Of a stretch of DNA of 36,131 nt, positions 17,117 to 35,797 are shown in pieces. Source of the stretch: Thermoprotei archaeon (GTDB lineage: Archaea > Thermoproteota > Thermoprotei > QMSL01); NCBI GenBank assembly GCA_003650925.1, contig QMSP01000020.1, positions 1-36,131 of the forward strand. Reading direction: 5' to 3'. The stretch's first letter is position 1. Each line of letters starts with the position of its first letter. A program made the position numbers and the translations under genes. Below the pieces are notes generated by a model. That model did not search any database. It was not told the DNA's origin and saw only the letters and a program-made list of their open reading frames with translations.

Positions 17117-18094
17117 CTATAGCAGCTCTAGGCTTCCTACAAGCGATTCCACTGTAGGTGATCTGACTCCTGATGCTAGAAGCATTACTCTTGGCCTCTC
17201 TAGTAGGTCATTGATTCTAAAGCCCCAGTAGACTCTTGTTATTCCATACTTCTCCGTGACCATCCTTGGGGCCTCACTAGCCTCCTCCAGCGTTGTCTTG
17301 GATGGTGCTTCTACATACAGTAAAGCCGCAGAGGCTTCCTTGAGGTCTGCATCAAGCAGTACATTATTGACCGCGTTAGCACAGGCCTCTGAGATTCTCG
17401 TCCCAACTCCATGGCCTACTACGCCCAGCTTCATGTCCTTTACTACGCTTACGAAATCTGAGAAGCTTATACTAACTATTCCCCCCTTAGTTATTATATC
17501 CACAATGCCCTTTATGGTATTGACAAGTATGGTATCCATGAATTTGAATGCATACTGTACTGGTATGGTGCCTATTCTCTTGAGGAGTATATCGTTTAAG
17601 TGAACTATAGTGAGGTCAGCCGCGCTTATTATAGAGCCAAGGCTGAGTTTAGCATTCTCTATCCTATTCATGCCTTCAAAACTGAATGGTAAGGTTACAA
17701 CAGCTATCCTGAGAGCATTGGGTATTCTGTTGCCTATCTCCTCAAGGAGTATAGACATTCCTCCAGAAGCTGTTCCTCCACCAAGTCCACCAGTCACTAT
17801 CACCACATCTGGCGTTCCAAGGCTGGTTATCACCTTGCTCACATCCTCCTTCATAGCTTCCTCGCCTAGAGCTATGTTGCCGCCACATCCATGGCCTTTC
17901 ACAACAGTTTCTCCTATCAATATCTTATTCCTTACCTTCACGCTTCTGAGATGCACCAGTTCTGTGTGTACAGCGATAGCAGCTATATTCATTTCATCGA
18001 CTATGCCGACTTCATATAGCCTATTTAGTGTATTGCATCCACAGCCGCCTATTCCCACTATGGCAATCTTAGGGTTTATACCCACAGCACTCAT
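17117..18094 (-). CDS. FtsZ/tubulin-superfamily paralogue D (last gene of the operon)
   Basis: The 325-residue protein keeps the FtsZ fold order: nucleotide loop GIGGCGCNTLNRL (14-26), AVHTE (41-45, where FtsZ has NTD), the tubulin signature GGGTASG (105-111), PFSFEGMNRIENAKLSLG (136-153) and DLTIVHLND (160-168). The T7 loop VSISFSDF (207-214) and a full C-terminal domain ending LLASGVRSPTVESLVGSLELL follow. Of the T7 residues that act on the neighbour's GTP (E. coli N207, D209, D212), the first two are serine (S208, S210) and only D213 remains. It has no linker and conserved tail for FtsA/SepF-type anchors. ATG 18094 overlaps the previous stop (ATGA) after GAAGGTGA. It probably binds GTP but is unlikely to trigger hydrolysis alone. 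Confidence 0.85.
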   Translation of the reverse strand: MSAVGINPKIAIVGIGGCGCNTLNRLYEVGIVDEMNIAAIAVHTELVHLRSVKVRNKILIGETVVKGHGCGGNIALGEEAMKEDVSKVITSLGTPDVVIVTGGLGGGTASGGMSILLEEIGNRIPNALRIAVVTLPFSFEGMNRIENAKLSLGSIISAADLTIVHLNDILLKRIGTIPVQYAFKFMDTILVNTIKGIVDIITKGGIVSISFSDFVSVVKDMKLGVVGHGVGTRISEACANAVNNVLLDADLKEASAALLYVEAPSKTTLEEASEAPRMVTEKYGITRVYWGFRINDLLERPRVMLLASGVRSPTVESLVGSLELL

Positions 18095-19029
18095 TCTTTC
18101 ACCTTCTTCAGAAGATCTTCAACTTCCCTTATTTTGACACGAGATATCAAGGTAGTTACTCTATACCCAGGAACCCGCCAATTGTATGCAGCTCCTATGT
18201 AGTAGTCCTCTATACCATACTTAACCATGAGGATATCCCTTACCTTATCCATGTCCTCAGCCTTTAAGTAGGCTATAGGTGCCTCAATGAAGACTACTGC
18301 AGACCTCCCCTTTTCTACTCGAGCTGTGCAGTAGTAGTTTCTCAAGGCCTGGTCAAAGGCTGCTTCAACATCTCTTCCTGTGCCGAAGCTAATTACGCCT
18401 AAACCACCATCTCTAGTAACCTTCTCTATGTGAGTAAAGTCCACGGCCTGTATAGCATCTTTCACTTCTGGAATTTCAAGAATGCTCTTCAAGGATTCAA
18501 CAATATATCTGTTGCCTATCTCATAGAGCTGTCTTGGACTTGGAGAGAGAGGCCTTTTTCTAAGAACCTCGTTGGATAGGACGAACACTATGTCAGCCTT
18601 GGGAAGTAGCTCTTTGAGAGCACGTTCAGCGTTCTCTATCCTACTCTTAGCCTCATTTAGCGATGGCAAGACTATGTAGTACCATTTGAGCGCTTCAGGC
18701 ATAGCATCCTTCAGCTCCTCAGCTAAGGCTATCAGACCGCCACTTCCCATGCCTCCTCCTATGCCAGAGGTCACTATGATTACGTCAGAGCCATGTAGGC
18801 TCTTGATTGCTTCAGCGACAACGTTCTTCACCAGCCTATATCCTTCCTCATACTCTCCCCCTGTTCCTCTTCCCGATGGTGTCTTTATCCTGTGCTTCAC
18901 CCTGGCCATGCTTAATGCTCTTTCGTCTACGTCTATGGCTACAGTGTTGGCTGTTCCAACCTTCATCTCAAAGAGAGACACTATGTTAATACCACAGCCT
19001 CCTATGCCTACTACTGTTGTTCTCACCAT
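18091..19029 (-). CDS. FtsZ/tubulin-superfamily paralogue C, the most divergent copy
   Basis: The 312-residue protein starts directly with VVGIGGCGINIVSLF (6-20). It has AIDVDERAL where FtsZ has NTDAQAL, and the tubulin signature is GGGMGSG (91-97; the usual threonine is methionine). SRIENAERALKELLPKADIVFVLSNEVL (129-156) matches the region that contacts guanine. The T7 loop QAVDFTHI (194-201) has A195 for asparagine, keeps D197 and has H200 for the second aspartate. PFxFEG, present in the other copies, is replaced by LPSLNEAK. The C-terminal domain is shorter and ends in a basic/acidic helix (KIREVEDLLKKVKE). ATG 19029 follows GGAGGTG and overlaps the 91-residue gene by 7 nt. It may be a structural or regulatory subunit. 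Confidence 0.8.
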   Translation of the reverse strand: MVRTTVVGIGGCGINIVSLFEMKVGTANTVAIDVDERALSMARVKHRIKTPSGRGTGGEYEEGYRLVKNVVAEAIKSLHGSDVIIVTSGIGGGMGSGGLIALAEELKDAMPEALKWYYIVLPSLNEAKSRIENAERALKELLPKADIVFVLSNEVLRKRPLSPSPRQLYEIGNRYIVESLKSILEIPEVKDAIQAVDFTHIEKVTRDGGLGVISFGTGRDVEAAFDQALRNYYCTARVEKGRSAVVFIEAPIAYLKAEDMDKVRDILMVKYGIEDYYIGAAYNWRVPGYRVTTLISRVKIREVEDLLKKVKE

Positions 19030-19298
19030 GTTCCACCACCTCCTCCTACAGAGCCTCTGGAGAGCATTAGGCGAAGAGCTTGTACTAGTGCATGAAGAGC
19101 TTCATATTTGTCTACGTTCACTTGAGCTTCCTGTGTTCTAAGCCAGTCCATGAACTTCATGACTGGGGGGTCATAAGGCATGCTCTGAAGCTCTAAGTAG
19201 CGAGCTAGCTCTACCTCGCCAGGATTCTCTTCGAGGAACTTTATGGCTAGTTCGATTATATCCTTCTTCTCTTTTTTCCTCTTAAGAAGGGGGCTCAT
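19023..19298 (-). CDS. Small alpha-helical protein of the FtsZ-family operon
   Basis: I recognise no family. The 91 residues begin with a very basic patch (KRKKEKKD, 6-13). Amphipathic helices follow (IIELAIKFLEENP; ELARYLELQSM; PPVMKFMDWLRTQ; VDKYEALHALVQALRLMLSRG), and the protein ends with VGGGGGTW. The glycine tail is encoded by the ribosome-binding sequence of the next gene. ATG 19298 overlaps the preceding FtsZ-family stop by 4 nt (ATGA) after TTAGGAGGTGG, and its own stop overlaps the next start by 7 nt. Such coupling suggests fixed amounts relative to the filament proteins. The basic N-terminus could contact membrane or nucleic acid, and a role as an adaptor or filament regulator is a guess from position. 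Secretion or membrane signals are absent. Confidence 0.75.
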   Translation of the reverse strand: MSPLLKRKKEKKDIIELAIKFLEENPGEVELARYLELQSMPYDPPVMKFMDWLRTQEAQVNVDKYEALHALVQALRLMLSRGSVGGGGGTW

Positions 19299-20323
19299 GG
19301 CATACCACCTCCTAACAATCTTTCAACATATCTTGACTTTGCTCCTGTAATGAAGAGGGACGTCCTGATGTCAACCATTCCAAGAGTTGGCCTGAGGCCC
19401 ATGAAGACCTCTCCTATCTTCAAGTCATCGCTTAAAGTTCGTACCACAGACCTTATCTGACCCATGTCTAGTGCAGTCTCTCTTCCTTCGAATAGTATGA
19501 GAGCGCCCCTTCCTCCAGCCACGTCAGCTTCAGCGAAGTCATCTCTTATAGCCTTGGTGAATGACTCTAGTACGCTTCTTCCAACTCCAACTCCAGCGAA
19601 GCATATCCCAGATCTCTCCATTATCCTCTGCACATTGGAGAAGTCAACGTTTATGAGGCCAGGGCCTACTTCAGGAGAGTTCAGCTTTACTAACGCCTCA
19701 ACTATTCTTACTATCCTTCTATTCATTATTCTGAAGGCTTCAGGCATGCTTACATTACGCAATCTGGTGGCCAGCAAGTCATTGGCATTTACTATGATTG
19801 CATCGGCCACGTTCATCACCTCTCTTAAGCCATACCTTGCATTCTCAAGCCTTTCAAAGCCTTCCTCTCTGAAAGGCAGAGTAATTACAGCTACCTTGAG
19901 TGTCCTAGGCCTTTTTATGGATAGTTCTCTGAACAGTACAGGCAGTCCTCCTGTTCCAGTCCCTCCTCCCATTCCAGCTATGCCTATGACCATATCTACA
20001 TCCTCATCTATAGCTGCTATAGCCTCGTCAATGCTGCTCTCCATAGCCTTAGCACCAACCTCAGGTGAGCCATGAGCACCTCTTGCAAGCGTTAATGGAT
20101 TGCCCAGTAGTACTCTAGCATGACATTGAGTCCTTCTTAAAACCGCTGCGTCTGTGTTCATAGCTATGAGCTTTACTGGCAATCTCTCCTTAGCCAGAGC
20201 ATCTATTATGTTATTTCCACAGCCTCCTACGCCGACCACATTTATTTTGACAGCGGACTTCTTCTCCATCTCTTCTATGAAGCCTTCCTCTCGCCTGCTC
20301 ATTATATCACTAACCCACCCCAT
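19295..20323 (-). CDS. FtsZ/tubulin-superfamily paralogue B, the most FtsZ-like copy
   Basis: Start ATG 20323 is chosen because AGAGGTG lies about 6 nt upstream; a GTG at 20332 would overlap the preceding stop. The 342-residue protein has GVGGCGNNIIDAL (31-43), MNTDAAVL (55-62), GAHGSPEVGAKA like FtsZ GAGGNPEIGRKA, and an unaltered tubulin signature GGGTGTG (119-125). LPFREEGFERLENARYGL and VNANDLL (178-184) follow. The T7 loop LINVDFSNV (223-231) keeps N225 and D227, but the second catalytic aspartate is N230. In E. coli FtsZ, changes at that aspartate (D212) give proteins that bind GTP but scarcely hydrolyse it. The end is SRYVERLLGGGMP, with no recognisable adaptor-binding tail. An N-terminal extension of about 25 residues precedes the fold. 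Confidence 0.88.
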   Translation of the reverse strand: MGWVSDIMSRREEGFIEEMEKKSAVKINVVGVGGCGNNIIDALAKERLPVKLIAMNTDAAVLRRTQCHARVLLGNPLTLARGAHGSPEVGAKAMESSIDEAIAAIDEDVDMVIGIAGMGGGTGTGGLPVLFRELSIKRPRTLKVAVITLPFREEGFERLENARYGLREVMNVADAIIVNANDLLATRLRNVSMPEAFRIMNRRIVRIVEALVKLNSPEVGPGLINVDFSNVQRIMERSGICFAGVGVGRSVLESFTKAIRDDFAEADVAGGRGALILFEGRETALDMGQIRSVVRTLSDDLKIGEVFMGLRPTLGMVDIRTSLFITGAKSRYVERLLGGGMP

Positions 20324-20328
20324 GATTC

Positions 20329-21324
20329 TCACCTCTGGAGAAGCTCAACCTCACCAATCCAGTCCTCTATAGTCTTAGACCTAACCCCACTTGCTATCAA
20401 GAGGACAGAGCTTTCCCTAAGCTCAGGGTCTGTCCTAAGGCCCCAAAGTATCCTCTCAACATAGTACTTCTCGCTTAGCGCTCTGAGAGCGTCCATAGCC
20501 TCCTTTAGTGATGTGCCTACGGGGGCTTGAACTAGTAGTAGAGCACCTTTAGCCGATGAAGGGTCGGCGTCCAGTAGCCTGTTCTCTATGGCGTTCTCAA
20601 GAGCTCGTCTTATCATCCTATGCCTGCCAAAGCCCATCATACATAGCCCTGAGCCTTTTACAGCAGATACAAAGTCTGAGAAGTCAACATGCTTTATGGA
20701 GCCTTTTGGGTCAAAGCATCTTAGAAGGCTCTCTATGGCGTTAGCTACCAAGAGGTCGACAGCTCTAAAGGCCTCTCGTACTGGCAGTGAACCATACTTA
20801 TCCAAGAGCATATCATTCATGTTGACGACTATGAAGTCAGCTACAGGGAGGAGCTCTTTAAGGCCTACTTGAGCATTCTTTATCCTCTCCAATCCTTCAA
20901 ACTTGAACGGTATGTCACCTATGACGCCAACTACAAGGTCAGGTAAGGACTTCTTCAGCTCTGATACTATGTACGGAAGAGCTCCAGATCCTGTTCCTCC
21001 TCCAAGGCCACAAACCGCAATGAGCAGGTCAGGCCTTTTCACAGCCTCCAAGACTTTATCAATGTCCTCTTCAGCAGCTTTTCTCCCCTTGGCTATGTCG
21101 CCTCCAGTCCCTCTCCCTCTACATACAGTCTCGCCTATCTGTATCAGCGCATGAGCTTTGGTAACGGAGAGGGTATTTACGTCAGTATCCACGGCTATTA
21201 GCCTTGCTGGAACCTTCCTCCTGTAGAGGTTAGTAACGGTATTACTTCCTCCTCCGCCTACTCCAAGCACTACTATGTCAAGGCCAACTCGAGGCAGCTC
21301 CTCACTTCTATAGGTCATCTCCAT
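20329..21324 (-). CDS. FtsZ/tubulin-superfamily paralogue A (first gene of the operon)
   Basis: ATG 21324 is preferred: a TATA box at 21351-21359 puts the transcript start near 21330, downstream of the alternative GTG at 21342, leaving an almost leaderless mRNA. The 331-residue product has VVLGVGGGGSNTVTNLY (18-34), AVDTDVNTL, GRGTGGDIAKGRKAAEEDI, tubulin signature GGGTGSG (108-114), PFKFEGLERIKNAQVGLKELL (139-159) and VNMNDMLL (167-174). In the T7 loop KHVDFSDF (211-218) asparagine is H212 while both aspartates, D214 and D217, remain. Among the four copies it has the best-kept acid pair and is the likeliest active GTPase. The C-terminal domain ends LLIASGVRSKTIEDWIGEVELLQR with no adaptor-binding tail. 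The stop is about 5 nt before the next ATG. Confidence 0.88.
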   Translation of the reverse strand: MEMTYRSEELPRVGLDIVVLGVGGGGSNTVTNLYRRKVPARLIAVDTDVNTLSVTKAHALIQIGETVCRGRGTGGDIAKGRKAAEEDIDKVLEAVKRPDLLIAVCGLGGGTGSGALPYIVSELKKSLPDLVVGVIGDIPFKFEGLERIKNAQVGLKELLPVADFIVVNMNDMLLDKYGSLPVREAFRAVDLLVANAIESLLRCFDPKGSIKHVDFSDFVSAVKGSGLCMMGFGRHRMIRRALENAIENRLLDADPSSAKGALLLVQAPVGTSLKEAMDALRALSEKYYVERILWGLRTDPELRESSVLLIASGVRSKTIEDWIGEVELLQR

Positions 21325-21350
21325 AGAGCTCGTCTTAATCACCTCATGCG

Positions 21351-25654: not shown

Positions 25655-27634
25655 CTACTTCCCCTCCTTTAGCTCGTCTGATGATATCTGCTCTACTGAC
25701 ACAGCTTCCTCGAAGGCCTCTATGCCCTCCTCCACTCCGTAAAAGATCCTTTCAACTATGTAATCGACTACTTTCTCAAATTGACCTCCTAAGCTATGCT
25801 CAAGCTCTCTGAGAGTTCTATATACCATCAGGACAGTAATAGCTAGCATTACCAAGGAGATCGTGAGTGATACATGTTGTGTCAATGGCGTTATGTGAGG
25901 CATGATGAGACTCATAGAGTACCAGACTATAGCTATGATGCCTAGGGATGTTAAGCAATTTATCACTGCTTTGAGCGAGGAACTTGTTGTCCAAAGGCGC
26001 TCAGCAATTATTTCAATGAGGACAAGGATCATATTTCTGAGGGCTAATACTGTACGAAGTGAGAAATAGGCTATGAGGAGCGCGTATATCAAGGTGACCA
26101 CTAGTGTGGATTCGACTTCAAAATAAAATATCTCGATGGAAAATTGAGGTATATGAGGAGCAAGTAATAGGAAGGCCATGACCAATAGAACAAGCTTAAC
26201 TAAGTACATGACTGTAGCATGAAGATGTTTCTTTAAGCCTTGTCTCAGTAGAGCTTCTTGACTGGTAGTTATAATGTGTGGCATAACTTCCCTTCTCATC
26301 CTTGCCTCAGACACTATGAAGCTTGGATGAACCTTGAGCATATGACATATGATGAAGAATGTGGATGAGGCTACTAGATAGTAGAGAGCGAGCGAAGGTA
26401 GGCCTATAATCAACGAAAGGACTATGATGAAGAGCCTCATATCTCTCGTCACGTAGGCAGGAGGAGATGGAGCAATGTCATACTCCTCAGGCTTGTTCAG
26501 AATGCTTAGAGCATTAGCATACTCTACAAGGAATATGCTTGCTGAAGCTATAGGGGTTAGTAGGTCCTTTATGAGACCGCTACACGTAAGGCCAAGAGCT
26601 ATTATGATGAGGAGGTCTGTTACTCCATGGGTAACGAGCGTACATACTCTCTCATTAACTGTCTCTTGCTTCATGAGGCTGTGTAGCTCATCACTTGCTT
26701 CTCCCAGTATGGCTGCGAGATATACTAGAGAAGCTGCTACAAGACCTAGTCCTAGACGCATACATGGAAGCGATAATAGGGCTATGAAGAAGCCTACTAT
26801 GGATAGCGTTAATGGGCCTACTGCTATCCCTGTCCTGTAGAGCCATGTCGATAACTTCGTTGAGAGAGGCTTGAAGAGATATTGGGATATAAAGCCTTTA
26901 CTTGACTTGGTTAATTCTCTTTGGATAATGCTCCAGTATATTCTTCTAGCCTTCTTCAGATCCTCGGGAGTATCTATATCGAGCCATAGGAGATTAGTGA
27001 CATCCACATAGTCTACTTCTCCCATGCTCGAGGCGTACTTGAGGGCATCACTTATCGATGCTTTAACTCCTTTCTCTCTAATCACCCTCATGACTATCTC
27101 TTTTGACTTCCTATTGAAGAGGATAAGGCCTGTATCTATGCCGTCAACAGGAGGTAGGCTCTTTCCAACGTCGCTCACTCTTCCCTCTCTGATTCTTATC
27201 TTAAGACCTTCCATGGCCTTATCCCAGCTCGGACTTCTATCAAGACATACTACAAAGGCTTTAGTCGATTTGGTCGATAGAATTCTTTTAAGCATCTCAC
27301 GCTCAAATATGTGGTCAGACATCAATACCAGGAATCTACTTAGGTTCAGTTTTCTTATCGCAAATGCTATAGGATATAAATTGCCAAAGTCCTCCCCTAC
27401 GTAGTCAATGGAAAGAACTTTGGCCTTGTAGCCTACTTTCTCCTCAAAAACTGACTTGAACTCAGGCCTTGTAACTACGTATATGTCCTTGAGACCAGCT
27501 TTCTCAAGCCTTTCGATAATGAAATCTATGATACTTTTACCTGGGGCTATCTCAAGCATGGCTTTAGGCTTATCATGAGTATAAGGATATAATCTCGTTC
27601 CCTTCCCTGCAGCTATTATTATGGCAGGAAACAT
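25655..27634 (-). CDS. Nucleotidyltransferase fused to an inactive-looking CDP-alcohol phosphatidyltransferase domain
   Basis: Residues 1-232 are an NTP-transferase domain: AAGKGTRLYPYTHDKPKAML (8-27), DIDTPEDLKKAR (219-230). Residues 245-445 align in layout with the membrane half of bifunctional inositol-1-phosphate cytidylyltransferase/di-myo-inositol-phosphate-phosphate synthases (KGFISQYLFKPLSTKLSTWL, then helices, then VTRDMRLFII). Such enzymes make the heat-protecting solute di-myo-inositol phosphate. However the catalytic motif DxxDGxxAR-x8-G-xxx-D-xxx-D is nearly gone: EASDELHSL stands at 312-320 and no aspartate occurs from 316 to 339. A further region (about 470-659) adds four hydrophobic helices and an acidic cytoplasmic tail. 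Usual length is about 430 residues, so this is an extended form. It probably makes an NDP-sugar or CDP-inositol; transfer activity is doubtful. Confidence 0.75.
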   Translation of the reverse strand: MFPAIIIAAGKGTRLYPYTHDKPKAMLEIAPGKSIIDFIIERLEKAGLKDIYVVTRPEFKSVFEEKVGYKAKVLSIDYVGEDFGNLYPIAFAIRKLNLSRFLVLMSDHIFEREMLKRILSTKSTKAFVVCLDRSPSWDKAMEGLKIRIREGRVSDVGKSLPPVDGIDTGLILFNRKSKEIVMRVIREKGVKASISDALKYASSMGEVDYVDVTNLLWLDIDTPEDLKKARRIYWSIIQRELTKSSKGFISQYLFKPLSTKLSTWLYRTGIAVGPLTLSIVGFFIALLSLPCMRLGLGLVAASLVYLAAILGEASDELHSLMKQETVNERVCTLVTHGVTDLLIIIALGLTCSGLIKDLLTPIASASIFLVEYANALSILNKPEEYDIAPSPPAYVTRDMRLFIIVLSLIIGLPSLALYYLVASSTFFIICHMLKVHPSFIVSEARMRREVMPHIITTSQEALLRQGLKKHLHATVMYLVKLVLLVMAFLLLAPHIPQFSIEIFYFEVESTLVVTLIYALLIAYFSLRTVLALRNMILVLIEIIAERLWTTSSSLKAVINCLTSLGIIAIVWYSMSLIMPHITPLTQHVSLTISLVMLAITVLMVYRTLRELEHSLGGQFEKVVDYIVERIFYGVEEGIEAFEEAVSVEQISSDELKEGK

Positions 27635-31435: not shown

Positions 31436-33016
31436 ATGAAGGAGAAGAAATATGTACTAAGTATTGATCAAGGAACTACAGGCACCCGAGCCATGCTGTT
31501 CACTCATGATGGCTTGCCTCTGCCGGGCGGTTGGGCTTATTGTGAACATCAGCAGATATATCCTAAGCCTGGCTGGGTAGAGCATAATCCTCTTGAGATA
31601 TGGGAAAAGACAAAGCTTGTGATAAAAATGGTCCTTGAGAATACCAAGATAGACCCAAGGGAGATAGCGTCCATAGGAGTCACTAATCAAAGGGAGACAA
31701 CGATCATATGGGATCCTCGAACAGGCAAGCCTGTCTATAACGCCATCGTGTGGCAATGCCGTAGGACAACACCACTCGTAGACCAGCTTAGGAGGGATTA
31801 CTTCGATGTAATACAGGAGAAGACTGGTCTAATACCAGACCCATACTTCTCAAGTACGAAGATCTGGTGGCTACTAGACAATGTATCTGGGCTACGAGAG
31901 AGGGCGATTAAAGGTGAGGTAGTCTTCGGCACTATAGATACATGGATAATATGGAATCTAACCAAGGGAGGCAAGGACATCTTAACGCCAGAGAGGCTTG
32001 GCGCTCACATCACAGACTACAGCAACGCCTCAAGAACTATGATATTCAACATACATAAACTTGACTGGGATGAGGAGCTACTTGAGATACAGGGCAAGAT
32101 ACCACGTGACATCCTGCCTATTCCAAGACCATCAAGCGACAAGGAACTTTATGGATTCACAGGGCCTGAGGTCACGAAGCTACTGAATGGTGTGGAGGTC
32201 CCAGTATGTGGTGATGCAGGCGATCAGCAAGCTGCACTCTTTGGACAAGTAGGCTTTGACCCAGGAGACATAAAGTCAACCTATGGGACTGGAAACTTCA
32301 TACTGCTCAATATAGGCACCAGGCCGATAAAGTCAAGGCATAATCTGCTGACGACTGTGTACTATAGTCTAGAGAAGAGCAAGGCTTGGTATGCTCTTGA
32401 GGGAAGCATATTCATAACAGGAGCAGCTATACAGTGGCTACGCGATGGATTGAAGATAATTGAAGTATCAGCTGAGATAAATCCACTAGCTGAAGCTGCT
32501 TCTGACACTGGGGGAGTCTACTTCGTTCCAGCGTTCGTAGGACTTGGAGCTCCCTACTGGGATATGTACGCTAGAGGGCTGATAATTGGTATAACCAGAA
32601 GCACCGAGAGAAAGCACATTGCACGAGCCTGCTTGGAGGCCATAGCCTACCTGACGCGTGATGTGATAGAGGCCATGATGGCTGATACAGGCATGAAGAT
32701 AATAAGGCTTAAAGCTGATGGAGGAGCCGCTAGAAGCGACTTCCTAATGCAGTTCCAAGCTGACATCCTCGGCATTGAAGTGTGGAGACCAGTGGTCTTC
32801 GAGACCACATCACTAGGAGCGGCGTACTTGGCAGGACTAGCAGTAGGATTTTGGAAGGACTTAGATGAGATCAAGAGGAACTGGAAGGTTGAAAGCATCT
32901 TCAAGCCAAGGATGAGCACAGAGTTACGTGAGAAGCTATATAAAGGCTGGAAGGCAGCTGTCAAGAGAGCTCTTGGATGGGCTAAGGAAGTCCCTTGGGC
33001 TTATGGTCTTGAATGA
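31436..33016 (+). CDS. glpK: Glycerol kinase
   Basis: Glycerol kinase phosphorylates glycerol with ATP to sn-glycerol-3-phosphate in the cytoplasm. The 526-residue protein has the FGGY signatures [15 protein letters not shown] (8-22), [14 protein letters not shown]-type [76 protein letters not shown] and [22 protein letters not shown]. It is about 25 residues longer than usual, mostly at the C-terminus. It leads a run with both subunits of glycerol-3-phosphate oxidation, so the cluster performs glycerol breakdown to dihydroxyacetone phosphate, or recycling of lipid glycerol phosphate. Confidence 0.96.
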
Positions 33017-33025
33017 TAACAACAG

Positions 33026-34534
33026 GTGTCTGAAGTGAGGGAATATCGCGTAGTGATAATAGGTGCTGGCATAGTCGGTTCATCAATTGCTAGGGTACTA
33101 AGCATGTATGAGAACCTTAGGGTTCAAGTAGTTGAGAAGGAGCCTGATGTAGGCTGGGGAGCCACTAAAGCTAACACTTCGATACTGCATCCTGGCCATG
33201 AAGAGGATCCTGATAGACACCCAGTCAGAGCAAGATTATGTGTTCAGGGCAATAAGATTTGGCGACGATGGATTAAGGAGCTTGAGATACCAGCTAAATT
33301 CCCTGGGGAGTTGATGCTAGCATTTAATGATGAAGATCTAAAGCGAGTTAGGAAATATATTGACCTTGCTAGGAGGAATGGTGTACCTGGCGTAAGGCTG
33401 ATAACTGATAGAGAAGAGCTTGAGCAGCTAGAGCCAAACGTATCCGAGGGCGCCATAGGCGCTCTATGGGCGCCAACAGCTGGTCAGATAAACCCCATAC
33501 AGGCAACCATAGCCTTGATAGAAAATGCTGTTGATAATGGTGTCATGCTCCACGTCGAGACAAAGGTCATTGGGATAAGGGTAGAGAAAGGGTTAGTGAG
33601 AGGCGTTGAGACAACCAGAGGATTTATCGAGGCAGATATTGTGATCAACGCCGCTGGAATATACGCAGATGAGATATCAAAGATGGCTGGCATCGATGAG
33701 CTTAGAATACACCCACGGAGAGGTGAATATTTTGTATTTGACCCACTAGCTGAGCCCAAGGTGACTAGAATAATCCATCCTATACCTACGCCAATAACTA
33801 AAGGGGTTTATGTCATAACTACTACCGAGGGCAATCTGATGATTGGACCATCAGCAGTAGACCTGCCCGAGCATGCCAAAGAGGATAAGAGCACTACACT
33901 TGAAGGTCTAAACTACGTGTGGAAAGAGGCTAAAAGACTGGTCAAGAAACTGCCGCCTAGGACAATGATAATAAGGGCCTTTGCAGGGCTAAGGCCTGAG
34001 CCCTCTACAGGGGATTTTGTGATAAAGGCTTATGATGATCCATGGGGCTTTGTGAACGTAGCAGGCATAAGGTCCCCTGGCCTAACTTCAGCACCAGCCA
34101 TAGCTTATCATGTAAGAGACCTACTGCAAGAGAAGCTGGGCGTAGAGCTCAAGGGGAAGAGGAAGTGGAATCCGTACAGAAAGGATATGGTCAGGTTGAG
34201 GAGAATGAAGTGGAAAGAGATGAAGACCTTAGTGGTGAAGGAGCCTGCCTATGGATGGGTCATCTGCGAGTGCATGAGAGTATCTGCGGCGGAAGTCCTT
34301 GAGGCCATTGAGAGGATGAGAAGGATAGGCATAAGGACGATAACGCTTGATGGAATAAAGTTCAGAACTCTGGCATTGATGGGTAGATGTCAGGGCTCAT
34401 TCTGCAGGATACGTATAGCGCTACTACTACAGAAGCGTCTAGGAGTGCCACTGTGGAGCATAACCATCAGAGGCGGCGATACGAGATATGCCATGGGAGA
34501 CATCAAATGCCTTTGGAGGAAAGGTAGAACATAG
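33026..34534 (+). CDS. glpA: Glycerol-3-phosphate dehydrogenase, FAD subunit with BFD-type 2Fe-2S domain (GlpA-like)
   Basis: The 502-residue flavoprotein oxidises sn-glycerol-3-phosphate to dihydroxyacetone phosphate and passes electrons on, probably to the membrane. VVIIGAGIVGSSIARVLS (9-26) is the FAD loop. GATKANTSILHPGHEEDP, INAAGIYADEIS, IHPRRGEYFVFD and PEPSTGDFVI are typical of the DAO/GlpA family. The C-terminus is a BFD-like 2Fe-2S domain: C414-x-C416, then C455-x4-C460 in GRCQGSFC. GTG 33026 is 10 nt after the glpK stop. The stop is followed at once by the next gene, so the three are one operon. Confidence 0.92.
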   Translation: MSEVREYRVVIIGAGIVGSSIARVLSMYENLRVQVVEKEPDVGWGATKANTSILHPGHEEDPDRHPVRARLCVQGNKIWRRWIKELEIPAKFPGELMLAFNDEDLKRVRKYIDLARRNGVPGVRLITDREELEQLEPNVSEGAIGALWAPTAGQINPIQATIALIENAVDNGVMLHVETKVIGIRVEKGLVRGVETTRGFIEADIVINAAGIYADEISKMAGIDELRIHPRRGEYFVFDPLAEPKVTRIIHPIPTPITKGVYVITTTEGNLMIGPSAVDLPEHAKEDKSTTLEGLNYVWKEAKRLVKKLPPRTMIIRAFAGLRPEPSTGDFVIKAYDDPWGFVNVAGIRSPGLTSAPAIAYHVRDLLQEKLGVELKGKRKWNPYRKDMVRLRRMKWKEMKTLVVKEPAYGWVICECMRVSAAEVLEAIERMRRIGIRTITLDGIKFRTLALMGRCQGSFCRIRIALLLQKRLGVPLWSITIRGGDTRYAMGDIKCLWRKGRT

Positions 34535-34546
34535 GTGAGGCCTATG

Positions 34547-35797
34547 ATGTACTACGATGTAGTAGTCATTGGTGGAGGACCTGCAGGACTGGCGGCTGCT
34601 ATAAGAGCCAAGGAGCTAGGACTAAAGACCATATTGCTAGAGAACACGGATAAGCTCGGTGGAATACCACTACAGTGCGTACACACAGGCTTTGGTCTCC
34701 ACTACTTCAAAGAGGACCTCACAGGAACCGAGTTCATATATAGATTCATAAGGAAAGCTGAACAGATAGGCCTTGAGTATAAGCTAAGGACTTACGCACT
34801 AGAGCTAGACATTATAGCTCATGATGAAAAGATCATTAAGGCACTGTCACCAGAAGGGTCGCTTGAGATAAGCACGAAGACAGTGATATATGCCGCAGGA
34901 GCTCGTGAGCGCCATGTGTTTGAAGTGAACATCGTGGGGGATAGGCCAAGTGGCATTTACACAGCTGGTGAGGCTCAGGCGATGATGGATCTGTATGGCG
35001 CACTGCCTGGGAGGAGGATAGTGATAGTGGGCTCAGGAGACGTAGGACTGATAATGGCTAGGAGATTTGCACTTGAAGGTGCTAAGGTGATGGCTGTTGT
35101 AGAGATCATGCCTTGGCCTGGTGGATTGCTCAGGAACGTAGTCCAATGTCTGGAGGACTATGACATACCATTACTACTAAGTCATGTAGTACTTAGAGTT
35201 CATGGTAAGGAAAGAGTTGAGAAGGTAGTTATAGCACAAGTAGACGAGAGGCTTAGGCCTGTGCCAGGTACTGAGAAGGAGATTGAGTGTGATACGGTCA
35301 TAATAGCAACAGGCCTAGTGCCCAATATTGAGCTTCTTGAGAGGATAGGTGTAGCAATTGACCCAGCAACTAGAGGGCCAAAGGTAAATGAATTGCTTGA
35401 AACAAGCATTCCAGGCATATTCGCAGCTGGCAATGCCTTGGTGATAAATGATCTTGTCGACTACACAGCTGAGCAAGGCGAGAGAGCTGCGGAAGGAGCG
35501 AGGATATTTGTGGATAATGACGGAATACCATCAGCTGACTGGAAACCCATTGAGAAGGGTAGGAATGTTAGGCTAGTCGTTCCACACTACATAAGTGGTG
35601 AGAGAGATGTTAAATTATATCTGAGGGTGCAAAAGCCAGAGCGTGATGTTTACATACGAATTCCAGAGATAAACAAGAGGACATTTCATCCAAAGGTCAT
35701 GCCATCCGAAATGGTGACCATGGAGCTGAGTAAGGAGGAGCTGAGAGACATTGGGGAGAAGATCACCATAGAGGTGATTCGCCGTGGAGAGTTGTAG
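34547..35797 (+). CDS. FAD/NAD-dependent oxidoreductase, partner of the glycerol-3-phosphate dehydrogenase
   Basis: The start chosen is ATG 34547 (MYYDVVVIGGGP), about 6 nt after GGTGAGG; ATG 34544 and GTG 34535 are other options. The roughly 416-residue protein has the FAD loop VVVIGGGPAGLAAAIRAKELG, then GGIPLQCVHTGFGLHYF and ATG-like YAAGARERHVFE. A second dinucleotide loop RIVIVGSGDVGLIMARRFALEGAKVMAVVE, AGLVPN-type ATGLVPNIELLERIG and GIFAAGNALVINDLVDYTAEQGERAAEGA follow. It belongs to the pyridine-nucleotide-disulfide oxidoreductase-like subunits that occur beside GlpA and DUF1667 proteins in anaerobic bacteria and archaea, and probably passes electrons from glycerol-3-phosphate to NAD or a carrier. 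Confidence 0.88.
   Translation: MYYDVVVIGGGPAGLAAAIRAKELGLKTILLENTDKLGGIPLQCVHTGFGLHYFKEDLTGTEFIYRFIRKAEQIGLEYKLRTYALELDIIAHDEKIIKALSPEGSLEISTKTVIYAAGARERHVFEVNIVGDRPSGIYTAGEAQAMMDLYGALPGRRIVIVGSGDVGLIMARRFALEGAKVMAVVEIMPWPGGLLRNVVQCLEDYDIPLLLSHVVLRVHGKERVEKVVIAQVDERLRPVPGTEKEIECDTVIIATGLVPNIELLERIGVAIDPATRGPKVNELLETSIPGIFAAGNALVINDLVDYTAEQGERAAEGARIFVDNDGIPSADWKPIEKGRNVRLVVPHYISGERDVKLYLRVQKPERDVYIRIPEINKRTFHPKVMPSEMVTMELSKEELRDIGEKITIEVIRRGEL

Follow-up and report, generated by a model that had tools for sequence, protein, structure and literature searches.

The window, by which we mean the whole 36,131-nucleotide stretch analyzed here (contig QMSP01000020.1 of a Thermoprotei archaeon, assembly GCA_003650925.1), carries on its minus strand a gene, referred to below as A, in which a nucleotidyltransferase domain of the IPCT type is fused to a membrane domain related to the CDP-alcohol phosphotransferases (CAPTs). 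The original prediction had described a fusion resembling the bifunctional IPCT/DIPP synthases (DIPP, di-myo-inositol-phosphate phosphate; DIPPS, its synthase), and this description held: the coordinates delimit exactly an ORF that runs as a single open frame from ATG to stop, its product matches the IPCT/DIPPS model NF041135, and its architecture recurs in many other genomes. The features of the gene are as follows.

25655..27634, minus strand: gene A, 659 amino acids, an ORF with relatives of the same architecture (IPCT, CAPT dead at the sequence level, C-terminal membrane domain)
26915..27634, minus strand: IPCT nucleotidyltransferase domain, residues 1-240, with AAGKGTRL (8-15), K24, LMSDH (104-108) and WLDIDT (217-222) kept
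26327..26902, minus strand: pseudo-CAPT domain (DIPPS type), residues 245-436, with six-TM-type helices in the model
26627..26704, minus strand: lost CAPT signature site, residues 311-336 (GEASDELHSLMKQETVNERVCTLVTH)
25700..26272, minus strand: C-terminal membrane domain, residues 455-645, outside any Pfam family and common to relatives with an intact motif
25658..25747, minus strand: acidic tail, the last 30 residues, with 9 D/E and 2 K/R, not kept in relatives

The nucleotidyltransferase half of A appears intact, as had been predicted. It matches PF00483 (E 2.8e-18), has the NTP_transferase fold together with the GxGTRL, PK, metal-binding Asp and WxDIDT elements of an IPCT, and keeps a set of candidate catalytic residues (R14, K24, D107, K158, D167, D219, and D221) that are invariant in 9 relatives. 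The NF041135 match extends over residues 4 to 431 (E 1.2e-43); its score of 149.7 bits lies below the equivalog cutoff of 580 bits of that model, which was built for Thermococcales. The best PDB sequence matches of this half are 4mnd and 2xme. Based on family membership and the conserved residues, the cytosolic half of A would make CDP-inositol from CTP and L-myo-inositol-1-phosphate. A has the same domain order as the bifunctional enzyme of Archaeoglobus fulgidus (AF0263, PDB 4mnd; NF041135), from which type of enzyme it probably descends, and shares its nucleotidyltransferase residues, and 4mnd is its best PDB match in both sequence and fold; it differs from AF0263 in lacking any CAPT signature and in having an extra C-terminal membrane domain.

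The CAPT signature reads D1xxD2G1xxAR...G2xxxD3xxxD4 (PMC4634129). In A, all 8 of its positions are changed: in register, D1 corresponds to G311, D2 to S314, G1 to D315, A to H318, R to S319, G2 to E328, D3 to T332, and D4 to H336. The nearest aspartates are at 315 and 340, so the earlier statement that none lies between residues 316 and 339 was exact. No Pfam family matched residues 245 to 436, but the half still aligns in register with DIPPS (hhalign probability 94.6, E 7e-8), and the best PDB match that Foldseek returned for the AlphaFold model of A (pLDDT 77) was again the A. fulgidus IPCT-DIPPS structure 4mnd. Thus, the six-helix CAPT membrane fold was kept and the active site lost, in agreement with the original prediction. 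A displaced motif is rejected by the register of the alignment, which puts the lost signature at residues 311 to 336. At the sequence level, the transferase half of A is catalytically dead. Comparison of close pairs gave dN/dS values of 0.24 to 0.30 for the dead CAPT domain versus 0.14 to 0.17 for intact CAPT domains; by this measure, purifying selection continues to act on the dead domain, which is constrained though relaxed.

The C-terminal membrane domain consists, in the model, of four long helices (459-494, 509-538, 551-580, and 585-656) and a beta-hairpin (499-508), and no Pfam family was found for it. Its presence had been correctly noted, but it is not an addition that accompanied the loss of the active site: A-type proteins have it both with and without the CAPT motif, and it is ancestral to the A family. 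We considered whether it might be an MscS-type channel domain (hhalign probability 0.1 to 0.4, no Pfam family) or a second CAPT domain (no hhalign support) and rejected both. One genome (G246) has the domain as a separate 157-amino-acid ORF (L154:3668-4141). The acidic tail is real in A, and relatives show no conservation of it.

We then surveyed 398 Thermoproteota genomes for A-type proteins and for a second, variant CAPT, B, whose motif has the form G-x-x-E-H-x-x-D-x-L-Y/F-E. A-type proteins were present in 36 of the 398 genomes (one of them, that of G212, being a fused IPCT-B protein) and B-type CAPTs in 32. The search for the same losses in orthologues that the original prediction had called for was successful: motif-less A was found in 14 genomes, namely, that of the window (G000), seven of family f4, which we take to be Thermofilaceae, five of family f20, and G036. 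Thirteen of these 14 also have B, and in the exception, G036, the contig ends within the A gene, at the side on which B would be expected. Orthologues with the motif intact, which had been put forward as evidence against the prediction, do exist and were read in 19 genomes (f15, f23, f40, f41, and f51), but B was found in 0 of the 19, where the search recovered nothing beyond their own CAPT domains and some weak matches to other CAPTs; lineage-specific loss is therefore supported rather than refuted. A Fisher test of 13/14 versus 0/19, calculated by hand on genomes that are not independent, gave a p value of ~2e-8. In all seven f4 genomes, B lies directly downstream of A and starts 1 to 11 nt inside its end; in the five f20 genomes, it follows directly after a short gap. 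A and B thus probably form one operon in the Thermofilaceae-like and f20 genomes. Three genomes have incomplete pairs: in G026, B lies at the end of a contig and A was not found; G005 has a broken A, with B not found; and G094 has a B fragment lacking the motif, with A not found. We regard the latter two as joint decay of A and B and count them as support for the pairing.

The survey also bears on two other explanations of the missing motif. That the CAPT half of A is alive by means of relocated or new residues seems very improbable. Acceptor-side residues are partly left (TRDMRLF in A versus SRDVRLF in DIPPS), but all 15 motif-less members that were read have most or all signature residues changed and share no conserved acidic cluster, and 13 of the 14 genomes concerned supply a B. 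An artifact of assembly, frame, or alignment has next to no likelihood: nothing was found in its favor, the frame is a single open one, and 14 genomes share the loss, among them G008, G011, G014, and G017, which are assembled into one or a few contigs. As the loss recurs across independent assemblies, this explanation would need an alignment error common to them.

The number of losses was estimated from a tree of the A-type nucleotidyltransferase domain, on which three changes are needed. A single clade of motif-less A was rejected (approximately unbiased [AU] test, p 9e-5), and an intact protein, L138, nests with the f20 losses (99/99). The motif was probably lost three times separately and at least twice, as judged from these sequences. 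In the f20 proteins, D4 is the sole signature residue kept, and we interpret them as an intermediate stage of loss. A phylogenetic sign test gave a p value of 0.25, a test that cannot reach significance with only three independent contrasts. Horizontal transfer of A could alter the count of events but not the association of A with B.

Among the CAPTs, B is a clade of its own (100/100). It keeps D1, D2, G1, A, R, G2, and D4; in 26 of 26 sequences read, E stands in place of D3 and the spacing from G2 is one residue shorter. The seven f4 proteins share the motif DGVDGKLAR...GxLEHSxDxLYE, and their N-terminal domain lacks the nucleotidyltransferase motifs. By sequence, the N-terminal domain of B is only weakly like nucleotidyltransferases (hhalign probability 64; rmlA_long E 0.005 in one member), while an AlphaFold model of B (pLDDT 81) matches 4mnd and A. 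fulgidus AF2299 across both domains, and also further nucleotidyltransferases; kinship of this degenerate domain with the nucleotidyltransferases is thus suggested more by the modeled fold than by sequence. AF2299 (PDB 4o6m and 4q7c) is the nearest PDB sequence match of B (E 1.7e-7) and is close to it in fold (TM 0.78 by target). It combines an active CAPT with a cytidylyltransferase-like domain (PMC4634129) and in this resembles B rather than the window protein. B differs from it in having E for D3, one residue nearer to G2, the canonical spacing of AF2299 being taken from the family definition. An origin of A as a duplicate of B is not supported, since its dead CAPT domain matches DIPPS at the probability given above and B at only 2.0 and since B is a separate clade.

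Outside the genomes with A, B is either fused to an intact IPCT or encoded within MIPS-IPCT-B operons (MIPS by PF01658, E 3e-28 to 3e-34), which places it in an inositol pathway. Given the E that B has for D3, shifted by one residue, its transferase activity is itself presumed; we infer that B acts on CDP-inositol and that the product is DIPP. The original prediction had left open whether the activated compound was a sugar or inositol, and both the IPCT/DIPPS family match and the MIPS-IPCT-B operons favor inositol over a sugar. In one such operon (L121:4981-6234, minus strand), a B of the clade that partners A has an N-terminal extension of ~200 amino acids; the IPCT of this locus is intact and stand-alone, and A is absent from it. 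Several IPCT-B or A-B loci have genes for mechanosensitive channels in their vicinity (L122:1366-2052, L123:4603-5325, L125:5831-6619, and L071:5547-6284), an arrangement that would fit a role in osmolyte synthesis.

In the genome of the window, B is encoded on another contig:

Contig C32, 2591-3313 (L102), minus strand: B of G000, 237 amino acids, CAPT domain only, motif DGVDGKIARLRKRKTYIGKLEHSIDMLYEQ

This B has the same variant motif as the others (PF01066, 29.8 bits versus a cutoff of 22), and contamination is unlikely because the tetranucleotide profile of C32 matches that of the window (r 0.972). It is not beside A, lacks the degenerate nucleotidyltransferase domain, and has a long branch (1.46), so the pairing in this genome rests on gene content and not on linkage. 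MIPS was found there with PF01658 (E 3.6e-34), while a search with PF07994 gave no match. A broader scan of genome contigs with the single protein as query returned gammaproteobacterial nucleotidyltransferases only. A third CAPT gene, on contig C39 (L032; L104:1946-2626), encodes an intact stand-alone DIPPS-like protein. It has no adjacent IPCT and is flanked by genes that, by eye, encode a probable N-acetylglucosamine-6-phosphate deacetylase and a glycosyltransferase. In this organism, the C39 protein might use the CDP-inositol made by A, with B performing a different reaction; its full canonical motif (DGVDGEIAR...GAYLDSVLDR), its NF041135 match (E 1.6e-41), and the failure of the A1 profile, at a threshold of 1e-25, to find a second IPCT in the genome speak for this. 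We nevertheless consider it improbable, as stand-alone DIPPS genes in related genomes adjoin their own IPCT with no motif-less A there, and motif-less A tracks B, with a strong DIPPS match in 0 of the Thermofilaceae-like A genomes.

The arrangement that we consider likely is one in which A makes CDP-inositol, B transfers inositol phosphate, and the dead domain of A serves as a membrane platform, probably for B. B, a divergent CDP-alcohol phosphotransferase, would take inositol phosphate from CDP-inositol and attach it to an acceptor, most probably a second inositol phosphate, to yield di-myo-inositol-phosphate phosphate. In the f4 and f20 genomes, B usually carries what may be the reciprocal defect, a degenerate nucleotidyltransferase domain, and an enzyme that is usually one chain thus appears to be split over two half-dead partners. 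The dead domain of A would most likely be a membrane anchor and dimerization surface that holds the cytidylyltransferase beside B. The idea of a pseudotransferase scaffold serving another membrane enzyme, put forward in the original prediction, has gained in that the loss of the site is real and a candidate enzyme, B, has been found; the scaffold role itself is a proposal.

More tentatively, A and B may be the two subunits of an obligate membrane heteromer, each with one live half and one dead half. Known CAPT homodimers have anion sites to which both monomers contribute (PMC8633023; PMC4634129), and it is on such homodimers that the idea of a dimer is based: the dead CAPT domain of A would take the place of the second protomer, the dead nucleotidyltransferase domain of B would do likewise on the cytosolic side, and CDP-inositol would pass between subunits. 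Such a heteromer would have arisen at least twice, after B replaced the fused DIPPS. A simpler account, which we judge somewhat unlikely, is that A works as an ordinary IPCT and its dead CAPT domain is a mere membrane anchor, with CDP-inositol diffusing to B and no A-B complex. The unlinked genes in G000, the faster evolution of the dead domain noted above, and the fact that other genomes encode stand-alone IPCTs beside a separate B or DIPPS are all in its favor. However, the overlap or close spacing of the A and B genes across two lineages (12 genomes) and the reciprocal retention of dead halves in both proteins suggest interaction, and an anchor could be much smaller than a six-helix domain.

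Whether as platform or as heteromer, the A-B arrangement is a variant of the IPCT/DIPPS system. Pairs of stand-alone IPCT and DIPPS genes (G001-G003 and G050) encode the same two steps on two chains; unlike A and B, they have no dead halves, and their CAPT belongs to a different clade from B. In trypanosomatid deoxyhypusine synthase, a dead paralogue is likewise kept beside a live one and is reported to raise activity 3,000-fold by forming a heterotetramer (PMC3663545). There, one site was lost in one paralogue, whereas of an enzyme with two steps, A seems to have lost one half and B the other. If our reading is correct, nature has repeated an experiment in which a bifunctional enzyme loses a site, a distant cousin takes over, and two complementary pseudoenzymes remain, and the pair offers a system for asking why membrane enzymes keep dead domains.

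Two other groups of genes in the window were noted. On the minus strand at 17117-21342 lies an unusual cluster: four genes of the FtsZ/tubulin family in tandem (PF00091, E 6e-25 to 8e-33), of which two also have FtsZ_C, and a 91-amino-acid ORF among them. On the plus strand at 31436-35797, genes for glycerol kinase, a type 2 glycerol-3-phosphate oxidase-like protein, and a Pyr_redox protein follow one another consecutively.
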